From contig NZ_JACBFY010000001.1 in NCBI RefSeq assembly GCF_021401245.1, forward strand, positions 1,116,001-1,180,000: 64,000 nucleotides of DNA, given 5' to 3'. The DNA comes from Pseudacidovorax sp. NFM-22 (GTDB lineage Bacteria; Pseudomonadota; Gammaproteobacteria; Burkholderiales; Burkholderiaceae_C). Positions 23,820-33,082 of this stretch are shown here, piece by piece. Made by a program: the position numbers and the translations under genes. The notes under the pieces were generated by a model. That model saw only the letters and a list, made by a program, of their open reading frames with translations. It had not been told where the DNA came from and ran no database searches. Position 1 is the first letter of the stretch. Each line of letters begins with the position of its first letter.

Positions 23820-25211
23820 TCAGGCCGCGCGGCAGCCGAGCACCGCGTCGCGCACCGCCCGCAGCGCCCGGCCGCAGTCGTCGCGCGTGAGCGGTCCGCC
23901 CAGGCACAGGCGCAGGGCCTCGGGCGGCATGCGGTCGGTCGAGAAGGCCTGGCTGGCCACCGCCGCCACGCCCATCTGCTGCAGCTGCTGCGCCAGCTCG
24001 GCGCTCACGCAGCGACCTCCCCCGTCCCCCTCATCTCCCTCCAGCGGCAGCCAGGCGTGAAAGCCCTGCGGATGCGTGCGCAGGCCCAGGTCGCCCAGCA
24101 GCTCGCGCGCCAGGGCGCTGCGCCAGCTGCATTCGGCGCGCATGGCATCGAGCGCCTGCGCCGCCAAGCCCGAGCCCAGCCAGTGCGTGACCAGGCCGGT
24201 CGTCAGCGGCGAGGCCATCACGGTCGTGGCACGCAAGGCGCCGGCCAGGCGCTGCGTGGCGGCATCAGTAGGCGCCAGCACGAAGGCATTGCGCAGACCC
24301 GCGCCCAGCCACTTGGAAGTGCCGCTCACGTAGTAGGTGAGCGCCGGGGCGAAGTCCGCCAGCGGCGGGGGCACGGCGGGCGCCAGCATGCCATAGGCAT
24401 CGTCTTCGATGATGGGCACGCTGTGGTGGGCGGCGATGTCCGCCAGTGCCTCGCGCCGACCGAGCGACAGCGTGGCCGTGGTCGGGTTGTGCAGGTTGGG
24501 GCACAGGTAGAGCGCGCCGATGGCAGCGCTCTTGCACAGCGTCTCGAAGGACTGCGGCACGATGCCTTCCTCATCGCACTGCAGCGGCTGCAGCTGCGTG
24601 CCGAGCTGCGCGGCGATGGCCTTGAGGCCGGGGTACAGCAGCGACTCCACCGCCAGGCTCTGGCCCGGCCGCACCAGCAGGCTCAAAAGCGCCAGCAGCA
24701 CGCTGTGGATGCCCGGCGCCACCAGCGTGTGCTCGGCACGCGCATGGCCCACCCACTGGCGCAGCCACTGCGCGGCGGCCTCGCGGTCGCGCGCGCTGCC
24801 GCCGAAGTCCTGGTAGCGCATCAGCTCGGCCACCGGCGTGGCGCCGACGAAGGCGGCAGCCTCGTCTTGCAACTGCTGGCCGACGGGATGGTCGCTCAGC
24901 TCCGGCGGCATGTTCATCGTCATCTCGGCGCCGGTGCCGCCGCGCAGCGGCAGGCCGATGAAGGAGCCGCGCACATAGGAGCCCAGCCCCGGCCGCGAGG
25001 CGATGAGCCCGCGCTCGCGCGCCTGCGCAAAGCCGCGCACCACCGTCGTGTAGTTCAGGCCCAGCTGCTGCGCCAGCTCGCGCAGCGGCGGCAGCCGGTC
25101 GCGCGGCGCGAGTCGGCCGCGCTGGAGGTCTTCGGCCAGCAGGTCGGGGATCAGCTGATAGGCCGGAAGTTCGCTGTGTCTCAGCCGCGCGGCCCAGTGC
25201 GAGAAGGGCAT
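23820..25211 (-). CDS. MocR-family regulator (GntR domain + aminotransferase domain)
   Basis: PLP-binding transcription factor of 463 residues. Residues 10-80 are a GntR winged helix ([40 protein letters not shown]). The rest is a fold-type I aminotransferase domain with the PLP lysine near residue 300 in [16 protein letters not shown] and the pyridine-contact segment [12 protein letters not shown]. It is divergent from the Nit1C cluster with 354 bp between the starts, and the region contains direct repeats suited to MocR binding. It is therefore the prime candidate for control of that cluster. The effector amine or amino acid is not known. Confidence 0.9.
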
Positions 25212-25565
25212 GGATCAATGGCTTTCAGGCGCTCGGGAAGCGCCAAGTAGAGCGCAATAAGCCGCCGCCGTGCGGTCGCAGTGCCTGCTTGTTTTGGTGC
25301 GCCATGCCATTGATCGGATGCATTGATTGCATCGGCCTGCGGCGCACTGGTGCATGGCGCGTGGGGCGCTCGTCATGCCGTGCCGGGCCGCGACCGGCCG
25401 CATGCACGCATGCCCATTGGCTTGATCGGCCATTGATCGGCCGCGCGGCTTGGCCAGCGGCCCGTTCCTCGCAAAGAGGCTGGCACCGCGGCACGAAGCG
25501 CCTGTCTTTCGAAGGCCTACCACCGCGGCCCGACCGATCCACCGCCAACCGCAACCGAGGTGCCC
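25212..25565. promoter_or_regulatory. Regulatory region between mocR and the Nit1C cluster
   Basis: A 354-bp non-coding stretch rich in repeated motifs. GCCATTGATC occurs at 25306-25315, at 25429-25438, and inverted at 25213-25222. A tight direct repeat of TTGATCGGCC lies at 25422-25431 and 25433-25442, 11 bp apart, or about one helical turn. A 17-bp palindrome, GATGCATTGATTGCATC, lies at 25317-25333. MocR proteins typically bind direct repeats, so these are likely operator parts. No clear sigma-70 promoter was recognised. Confidence 0.6.
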
Positions 25566-26048
25566 ATGCCCCAAGTGACCCATCCCGCCGCCCAGAAGGG
25601 CGACTTCCTGGTCGACTACGAAGAGAAGGTCTTCGAAGACGTCAAGGCCGAGCCCGGCGAGAAGGCCCTGGTGACCTTCCACACCGTGGCCTTCGAAGGC
25701 TCCATCGGCTTCGTCAACCTGCTGCAGGCCACGCGGCTGCAGCGCAAGGGCTTCGAGACCTCGATCCTGCTCTATGGCCCGGGCGTGACCCTGGGCGTCA
25801 AGCGCGGCTTTCCCAAGCTGGGCGACTCCGCCTTCCCGGGCCACCAGAACTTCAACGAGCAGATCACCAAGTTCATCGCCGAAGGCGGCAAGGTCTACGC
25901 CTGCCGCTTCGCGCTGCAGGCGCTGTACGGCCATGGCGAAGGCGCGCTGATCGAAGGCATCCGCCCCATCAACCCGCTGGACGTGCTCGACATCGTGCTG
26001 CTGCACCGCAAGCAGGGCGCCTTCATCCTCGACACCTGGACGCTCTGA
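25566..26048 (+). CDS. MSMEG_0572/Sll0783-family nitrogen-starvation response protein (Nit1C)
   Basis: First gene of the Nit1C-type cluster, 160 residues. It matches the family that includes Synechocystis Sll0783, a protein induced by nitrogen starvation and needed there for normal polyhydroxybutyrate accumulation; its biochemical function is unknown. Features visible are a conserved-looking core [20 protein letters not shown] and [17 protein letters not shown], similar in style to DsrE-like folds. The ATG at 25566 has a GAGG ribosome site 6 nt upstream; the GTG at 25560 is the alternative. The nitrilase gene follows after 20 bp. Confidence 0.87.
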
Positions 26049-26068
26049 GCGTCGCCCCGGAGCAGCCG

Positions 26069-31478: not shown

Positions 31479-31759
31479 CCTACACCCTGCGCTGGCCCGA
31501 TGCCAGCGAGACCGTCGCCTACTCGCCCTCGCTGGTGATCCAGGACTACTTCGCGCCCGGCCAGGCGTATGCGCTCGATGACTTCCTGCAGAAGCTGCGC
31601 GAGGCCACCGGCATCGCCAACGACCGGGTACGGGCCAAGTTCGGCTTCGCCTGCTCGCGCGCCAGCGACCAGTTGGCGGACATCGAGGCCCGCGTGGCCC
31701 GCCATGCCGGCGCGCCCGGCGCCCAGGTGCAGGTCGTGGCCTTCGGGCCGGCGGACTGA
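31466..31759 (+). CDS. MSMEG_0570-family small protein (Nit1C)
   Basis: Ninety-seven residues, matching the small family named after MSMEG_0570 and found only in these clusters. It opens with MPAMTYTLRWPDASE, then YSPSLVIQDYFAPGQAYALD and VRAKFGFACSRASDQLADIE, which carries one conserved-looking cysteine. The ATG at 31466 gives the family-like MPxM start; the second ATG at 31475 overlaps the previous stop as ATGA and is the alternative. The function is unknown. Confidence 0.85.
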   Translation: MPAMTYTLRWPDASETVAYSPSLVIQDYFAPGQAYALDDFLQKLREATGIANDRVRAKFGFACSRASDQLADIEARVARHAGAPGAQVQVVAFGPAD

Positions 31760-31795
31760 GCCACCGCGCCCGCTTCCCCATCCAAGGAGTAACCC

Positions 31796-33082
31796 ATGAC
31801 CGCTTCCACTGCCCTCGCCCCGCACTACCCCGTCGTCGTCATCGGCGGCGGCCAGGCCGGGCTGTCCACCAGCCATTACCTGCAGCAGGCCGGCATCGCG
31901 CACGTCGTGCTCGAAATGCACCGCATCGGCCATGCCTGGCGCGACCAGCGCTGGGACAGCTTCTGCCTGGTCACCCCCAACTGGCAGTGCCGTCTGCCCG
32001 ACTTTCCCTACAGCGGCCCGGACCCGAAGGGCTTCATGCTGCGCGACGAGATCGTGGCCTACCTGGAGGCCTTCGCCCGCAAGACCCGACCACCCGTGAT
32101 CGAAGGCGTGACGGTGCAGTCCGTGCGGCGCCATGCCGACGGCATGCTCGAAGTGAGCACCACGCTCGGCACCTGCCTGGCCGACCATGTGGTCGTGGCC
32201 ACCGGCGGCTACGACCTGCCCATCGTGCCCGCCTGCGCCCACAGCCTGCCGCCGGCCATCACCCAGCTGCATTCGGTGGACTACCGCAACCCGGCGCAGC
32301 TGCCGCCCGGCGAGGTGCTGGTGGTGGGCTCCGGCCAGTCGGGCGTACAGATCATGGAAGACCTGCACCTGGCCGGCCGCAAGGTGCACCTGGCCGTGGG
32401 CTCGGCACCGCGCTCGCCGCGCGTGTACCGCGGCCGCGAATCCACCGAATGGCTGCACGAGCTGGGCTTCTACAACCTCACGGTCGACCGCCATCCGCTG
32501 GGCGACGAAGCCCGTCACAAGACCAACCACTACATGACCGGCCGCGACGGCGGCCACGAGATCGACCTGCGCCGCTTCGCGCTGGAAGGGGTGCGGCTGT
32601 ACGGCACGCTGGCCGACATCCAGGGCACGCAGGTGAGCTTCCGCCCCGACCTCACGCGCAACCTCGACGAGGCCGACGAGGTGTACTGCAACATCCGCCG
32701 CGACATCGATGCCTACATCGCGCGCGCAGGCATCGACGCGCCGGTGGAACCGCCCTTCCAGAAGGCCTGGCAGCCCGATGCCGACCCCACGCTGCTGGAC
32801 CTGCAGGCCGCCGGCATCACCAGCATCGTGTGGGCCATCGGCTTCCGGCCCGACCACCGGTGGATCGACCTGCCCGTCTTCGACGGCCGCGGCCATCCGC
32901 GCTTCCGCCGCGGCGTGACCGCAGAGCCGGGGCTCTATTTCGTCGGCCTGCCCTGGCTCAACACCTGGGGCTCCGGGCGCTTCCTGGGCGTGGCGGACGA
33001 TGCGCAACACCTGGTCGAGGTGATCGGCCAGCGCATCGCCGCGGCCGCCGACCTGCCCGAGCCGGTGGCCGAGGCTGCCTGA
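31796..33082 (+). CDS. Flavin-dependent oxidoreductase, MSMEG_0569 family (Nit1C)
   Basis: FAD/NAD(P)H-dependent enzyme of 428 residues with the layout of flavoprotein monooxygenases. The FAD-binding GxGxxG is [18 protein letters not shown] near residue 18, a second dinucleotide fold is [17 protein letters not shown] near residue 178, and the closing ATG-like segment is [19 protein letters not shown]. It is the last gene of the Nit1C cluster, 36 bp after the MSMEG_0570-like gene, with a TCCAAGGAG ribosome site. It converges with the CMD/AhpD gene 12 bp away. In cyanide assimilation an oxygenation step has been suggested; that role here is inference. Confidence 0.9.

Follow-up and report, generated by a model that had tools for sequence, protein, structure and literature searches.

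The Nit1C gene cluster and its divergent regulator gene were analyzed in Pseudacidovorax sp. NFM-22, in a 64,000-nucleotide stretch of contig NZ_JACBFY010000001.1 (positions 1,116,001 to 1,180,000, forward strand) that is referred to as the window. Eight plus-strand genes and a minus-strand gene for a MocR-type regulator diverge from an intergenic region with putative operators and a sigma54-like promoter element. The features are listed in window coordinates, and bit scores are followed by the curated NCBIfam cut-offs.

23820-25211, minus strand: MocR-type regulator, GntR winged helix-turn-helix plus aminotransferase domain, divergent to the operon (Pfam GntR and Aminotran_1_2)
25309-25333, plus strand: middle putative MocR operator, TTGATCG and TTGATTG in 13-bp register (sequence reading)
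25338-25354, plus strand: NtrC-like site, 11/14 positions of the consensus (consensus score; weak)
25422-25439, plus strand: proximal putative MocR operator TTGATCGgccaTTGATCG, 11-bp direct repeat, the sole exact TTGATYGN4TTGATYG match in the 6.4-Mb genome
25458-25474, plus strand: degenerate sigma54-like -24/-12 element CGGCCCGTTCCTCGCAA with GG-N10-GC kept (alignment by eye and position weight matrix, PWM)
25566-26048, plus strand: nitB, MSMEG_0572/Sll0783 family, predicted DsrE/YchN fold (TIGR04044, 288.9 bits, cut-off 109.85)
26069-27064, plus strand: Nit6803-family nitrilase (TIGR04048, 567.2 bits, cut-off 502.6)
27061-28182, plus strand: MSMEG_0568-family radical SAM protein (TIGR04043, 584.2 bits, cut-off 303.7)
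28287-28859, plus strand: MSMEG_0567/Sll0786-family GNAT (TIGR04045, 203.4 bits, cut-off 68.45)
28856-30235, plus strand: Sll0787-family AIR synthase-like protein with a repeat-derived N-terminal extension (TIGR04049, 416.3 bits, cut-off 321.3)
30228-31478, plus strand: MSMEG_0565-family glycosyltransferase (TIGR04047, 335.9 bits, cut-off 259.85)
31466-31759, plus strand: MSMEG_0570-family small protein (TIGR04042, 113.2 bits, cut-off 79.85)
31796-33082, plus strand: MSMEG_0569-family flavin-dependent oxidoreductase, the flavoprotein (TIGR04046, 640.5 bits, cut-off 498.35)

The window locus is a complete, ordinary copy of Nit1C; it is a new member of a bacterial cluster linked to nitriles and cyanide that is itself already known, though little understood. 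All eight genes from 25566 to 33082, the glycosyltransferase gene included, exceeded their cut-offs in the NCBIfam scan, and they lie in canonical order on a single strand. From nitB to the flavoprotein gene, the successive spacings calculated from the coordinates are +20, -4, +104, -4, -8, -13, and +36 bp, i.e. gaps of -13 to +104 bp. An earlier sequence-only reading of this DNA had proposed all eight members in order, mostly overlapping or closely spaced, behind a divergent MocR gene, and each of these points was confirmed. One of the two outcomes that it named as refuting, a search that puts the flanking genes outside the Nit1C families, was checked with NCBIfam, and the proposal stood. The 2005 description of Nit1C (Podar, PMC1199592) assigned no function to it. 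The window shares with that description all core families and the canonical order, and the glycosyltransferase gene between open reading frames 5 and 6 makes it similar to Burkholderia and Rubrivivax in the same paper.

The regulator scores 40.5 bits with Pfam GntR (cut-off 27) and 83.5 bits with Aminotran_1_2 (cut-off 19.7). Its best NCBIfam model is EhuR, which belongs with EnuR to a MocR subfamily of ectoine regulators. The model matches over nearly the full length, but the score of 324.3 bits falls below the curated cut-off of 480, and membership of the EhuR/EnuR family was rejected accordingly. No ectoine family was found by NCBIfam among the ten locus proteins scanned. The operator suggested for EnuR/EhuR, ATTGTn6ACAAT (PMC8739950), differs from the TTGATCG direct repeats seen here, and the EnuR ligand is an amino compound, alpha-ADABA (PMC8739950). 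The nearest named relatives of the window MocR come from Pseudacidovorax loci, with 97-99% identity in loci L097-L100. Residues K300, Y133, Y193, N242, Y273, R307, and R434 are kept in 116/116 MocRs, and D271 in 114/116. In aminotransferases these residues presumably hold pyridoxal 5'-phosphate (PLP) or the substrate carboxylate, K300 being the PLP lysine. Their near-invariance makes a PLP-linked ligand of the window MocR likely. MocR distances correlate with those of radical SAM (rho 0.81), and so do nitrilase distances (0.77); common descent would also give the correlation of MocR with radical SAM.

We then inspected how regularly MocR accompanies the operon. Genomes of Pseudomonadota were picked by the nitB cut-off alone, without regard to MocR, and nitB was found in 12/300 genomes of the order, 49/399 of the family, and 16/398 of the phylum. 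After removal of overlaps, 72 genomes remained (the window's own, 11 from the order, 48 more from the family, and 12 more from the phylum), and 72 loci were fetched from the 71 genomes other than the window's. A MocR homologue is divergent to nitB in 71/72 genomes, own included, and 70/72 fetched loci have one of at least 276 bits and 37-99% identity. Of the two fetched loci without one, L196 is a short second fragment, and the genome that it belongs to has MocR at its other locus, L079. In L212 (genome G873), a 648-residue PAS/AAA+ regulator, NitA-like by arrangement, is divergent to nitB. In four loci (L062, L161, L167, and L172) MocR lies about 2 kb from nitB. For the converse, genome contigs were scanned with the MocR protein and the best 80 of 142 relatives were taken, which partly repeat the nitB-picked genomes. 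All of these best 80 loci have a nitB match, that of L145 being partial and at a contig end. The linkage is near-universal, and MocR is the usual Nit1C partner in the sampled Pseudomonadota. The MocR noted in the sequence-only reading is no peculiarity of this locus.

Two further observations concern these loci. Genome G461 (L160 and L194) has two copies of nitB, about 4.1 kb from each other and on either side of MocR, which by coordinates is divergent to the nearer copy. Within the window's genus, L179, L180, and L183 carry a MocR 56% identical to that of the window, as against 99% in L069, so that Nit1C copies of two lineages occur in one genus, which suggests horizontal exchange.

The intergenic regions between MocR and nitB share a conserved arrangement. 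Altogether 149 regions, 129 of them unique, were reduced to 118 non-redundant ones, and expectations were obtained from dinucleotide shuffles. On the nitB strand, 113/118 regions contain TTGATYG and 78/118 contain the 11-bp pair TTGATYGN4TTGATYG, against expectations of 12.0 and 0.0, respectively; on the opposite strand, the single box is present in 48 regions and the pair is absent. Between neighboring boxes, the two commonest spacings over the 118 regions are 13 bp (91 pairs), which ranks first, and 11 bp. Promoters of the sigma54 class have a -24/-12 element of the TGGCAC-N5-TTGC type with a GG-N10-GC core, and a matching TGGCA-N8-GC is present in 104/118 regions (expected 10.4). By PWM, 107/115 regions exceed the 99% shuffle level. 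Geometry was assessed in the 115 regions shorter than 800 bp, 114 of which gave a promoter anchor with a relaxed pattern allowed. Measured from the -24 T, the start of the nearest box, with T or C accepted as its first letter, lies 25-26 bp upstream in 86/114 anchored loci and 36-37 bp upstream in 15/114, and a box lies within 15-60 bp in 107/114. Further boxes stand at 100-190 bp in 79 anchored loci and at 200-330 bp in 75. Sites agreeing with NtrC at 11 or more of 14 consensus positions were found in 31/115 regions compared with 3.6 expected from shuffles.

The window has boxes at 25310, 25323, 25422, and 25433, besides the NtrC-like site and the degenerate promoter-like element listed above. 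In an alignment by eye, CGGCCCGTTCCTCGCAA holds the same position as TGGCATGTCCGTCGCAA of L106 and keeps the CGCAA end. A stricter pattern, TTGATYGN4TTGATYGCA, was found in 33/399 family genomes, and 28 of the 33 matches are directly upstream of nitB by coordinates; the other five are in G399, G424, G537, G589, and G666. The reversed pattern gave zero among the matches listed for the family genomes. The window pair has no final CA and is thus outside these 33. In L062 (4862-6115), L167, and L172, a gene that looks porin-like by eye stands between MocR and nitB. This gene is preceded at about 80-95 bp by a sigma54-like element of its own, besides the one before nitB. The authors of the 2005 description could not identify conserved binding sites upstream of Nit1C (PMC1199592), in contrast to the arrangement found here. 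The nitrogen link drawn in the sequence-only reading gains support from the sigma54-type promoter before nitB in most relatives and from NtrC and RpoN in the genome.

A contrast is provided by the genus of G873, which we infer to be Pseudomonas. Of 199 genomes screened, 16 have nitB, and each of the 16 loci has a sigma54-type element 70-87 bp upstream of nitB. No TTGATYG box was found within 300 bp upstream of nitB (0/16), and no MocR within the 1.5-kb flanks (0/16). A NitA-like gene is directly divergent in 14/16; it is displaced in L237, and L236 has none within 1.5 kb. The best MocR relatives elsewhere in these genomes are 29-37% identical, one genome having none at E 1e-30. In CECT5344, a Pseudomonas pseudoalcaligenes strain, the divergent regulator of nit1C is the sigma54-dependent NitA (PMC11049912), while the lineage of the window has MocR there. 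The window is therefore not of the Pseudomonas type, since MocR occupies the place of NitA.

The products of the operon were examined one by one. The nitB frame is open from a GTG at 25560; the predicted fold of its product matches solved DsrE/YchN structures, and its score with Pfam DsrE is 16.9 bits, below the gathering score of 22.7. The nitrilase matches the solved structure PDB 3wuy, which we take to be Nit6803, at 499.7 bits. The GNAT also matches the Pfam FeeM-like N-acyltransferase family at 32.5 bits (cut-off 27). In the AIR synthase-like protein, the first ~80 residues are largely encoded by two dispersed repeats, and the TIGR04049 match begins at residue 85. The repeats are two copies of a palindromic element with the word TTCGACARGCTCAGCC at 28897-29076, translated in frame. 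This word has 106 exact matches in the genome, and a shorter form occurs near the gene start in the relatives L097, L098, and L100, though not in L099. The C-terminal end of the same protein, beyond the family match, is a low-complexity Ser-Ala repeat (30130-30232). The structure model of the MSMEG_0570-family protein (31466-31759) is confident, with a predicted local distance difference test score (pLDDT) of 89.2, and has no confident match among the solved PDB structures.

The convergent gene at 33095-34273 encodes a CMD/peroxidase-related protein (TIGR01926, over cut-off) and is outside the conserved cluster, with a match in 3/152 loci; it pairs with a gene at 34270-35580 on the minus strand, also convergent to the operon, that by eye looks like an acyl-CoA thioesterase/hydrolase gene. 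On the other side, a tRNA-Leu(caa) gene at 23289-23373 lies between the 3' end of mocR and a gene that by eye is cysM-like, and the cluster may be at a tRNA-associated insertion point.

We consider it fairly probable that the complete Nit1C operon of this Pseudacidovorax-like betaproteobacterium is under a dedicated MocR and combines sigma54/NtrC nitrogen control with a MocR ligand switch. The TTGATCG direct repeats would be the MocR operators, and sigma54 RNA polymerase would transcribe the operon. Such promoters require a remote AAA+ activator. A gene for one stands beside the operon at NitA-type loci and mostly not at MocR-type loci. Because the MocR-type operon has no dedicated activator encoded beside it, MocR has no activator (AAA+) domain in the Pfam scan, and the genome encodes both NtrC and RpoN, NtrC appears to be the most economical candidate. 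It would act as the remote activator in the MocR lineages and would be the probable source of nitrogen control. MocR, bound about 50-65 bp upstream of the start, would sit between the promoter and the activator site and gate the contact of the activator with the promoter, and bending or blocking of the DNA could control looping. The gating would depend on a pathway-specific ligand on the PLP of MocR, either an amino compound or cyanide-modified PLP, and expression of the operon would need both a shortage of nitrogen and the presence of the ligand.

Several points weigh against this proposal. The set of regions mixes MocR-picked and nitB-picked loci, and related species do not count as independent cases. 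Of the 115 regions scored, 101 had served to train the PWM, and 6 of the other 14 exceed the 99% shuffle level. In five of the 118 regions (L058, L214, L217, L218, and L222), MocR is present but the nitB strand lacks TTGATYG. The assignment of the box to MocR is based on co-occurrence, and the NitA contrast comes from one genus. The NtrC-like sites, although enriched, appear weak. With 1-2 mismatches, the pair matches 27 further places in the window's own 6.4-Mb genome, compared with 4 for the reversed pattern, and further targets are therefore possible. Finally, the sigma54 element of the window is not significant by PWM score alone (p 0.08), and it is poor also in the nearest relatives L069, L101, L102, and L118, so that a different promoter may have taken over in this lineage.

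An alternative that we hold as a tentative possibility is that the operon is mainly biosynthetic, making a small acylated or glycosylated nitrogen-starvation metabolite, with the nitrilase inside the pathway and cyanide use as a side benefit. It draws on the FeeM-like match of the GNAT, on the glycosyltransferase and radical SAM genes, and on recurring neighbors. An LnmK-type gene is directly downstream of the flavoprotein gene in 27/104 testable loci, and a methylmalonyl-CoA mutase match is present in 14/104, in 13 cases together with the LnmK-type gene. Examples are L169 (2894-3757) and L062 (12427-15536), and these genes are a possible extension of Nit1C; the literature search gave no paper joining LnmK and nitrilase. 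However, neither extra gene is beside the window's cluster, NitC has a direct cyanide phenotype in Pseudomonas (PMC11049912), and no product of the cluster was found in the portions of the literature covered.

It is unlikely, in our estimate, that the sigma54 element is a dead relic in the window's lineage and that MocR acts on a sigma70-type promoter. The degeneracy of the element in the window and its Pseudacidovorax relatives speaks for this, but against it, GG-N10-GC spacing and CGCAA survive at the syntenic position, and the proximal box still lies at its 25-bp distance.

We regard as rather unlikely a MocR that is a direct cyanide sensor, in which cyanide would add to PLP as a cyanohydrin or an aminonitrile and the changed DNA binding would switch on a cyanide-assimilation operon. 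The PLP lysine K300, kept in 116/116 MocRs, speaks for this reading, while R434, equally invariant, suits an amino-acid ligand, being by homology to aminotransferases presumably the binder of the substrate carboxylate. MpaR, a MocR-type regulator of P. aeruginosa, is needed for cyanide-dependent expression of ccoN4 and is hypothesized to bind PLP-CN (PMC10790758). Since MpaR needs cyanide for full function, the sequence-only proposal that an amine or amino acid is sensed stands as one option and not as the sole one. MpaR is likened to the window MocR by its published description, as a MocR-type regulator tied to cyanide, and differs in its target ccoN4 and in requiring a short ATCTGAT motif (PMC10790758). 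In CECT5344, a divergent MocR-type regulator is inferred to repress the cio/nit4 cluster (PMC8567248), and it stands beside a nitrilase cluster as in the window; the nitrilase (Nit4) and the cluster are other ones, and Nit1C of that strain has NitA. NitC of CECT5344 is described as indispensable for assimilating cyanide, and cyanide strongly raises the levels of Nit1C proteins there, though under NitA (PMC11049912, PMC10138600). The cyanobacterial and mycobacterial Nit1C families, by contrast, are named for nitrogen starvation in NCBIfam. A broader version, in which MocR replaces the dedicated sigma54 activator in most Nit1C-bearing Pseudomonadota by ligand-controlled DNA shaping at a fixed distance from -24, its PLP reacting directly with cyanide to give a one-component cyanide sensor coupled to nitrogen limitation, seems quite improbable.

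Least probable of all is that MocR controls only its own gene, with NtrC/sigma54 alone driving the operon and another protein using the repeats as an architectural site: mocR and the operon share one intergenic region and IHF often binds sigma54 promoters where the proximal box lies, but the boxes are missing where MocR is replaced, and on the promoter side of the operon the nearest pair has a fixed position.

Returning to the proposed gated sigma54 promoter, we found in the partial texts searched neither a description of MocR regulating Nit1C or of the repeat/sigma54 arrangement, nor a MocR at a sigma54 promoter. Where PMC5333837, PMC10138600, and PMC13021748 mention MocR, they refer to that of the cio cluster or to a different regulator. 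A survey of MocR regulons names neither nitrilase nor sigma-54 in the available main text, and its supplements may list such a regulog (PMC5320631). If real, a MocR at a sigma54 promoter would be unusual as a regulatory design. A second, biosynthetic lead comes from the LnmK-type and methylmalonyl-CoA mutase genes that recur as neighbors. A dedicated ligand-binding regulator together with a candidate operator would give a direct handle on the inducer, and hence on the substrate of the pathway; the proposed promoter-side switch is thus a testable route to what Nit1C responds to.

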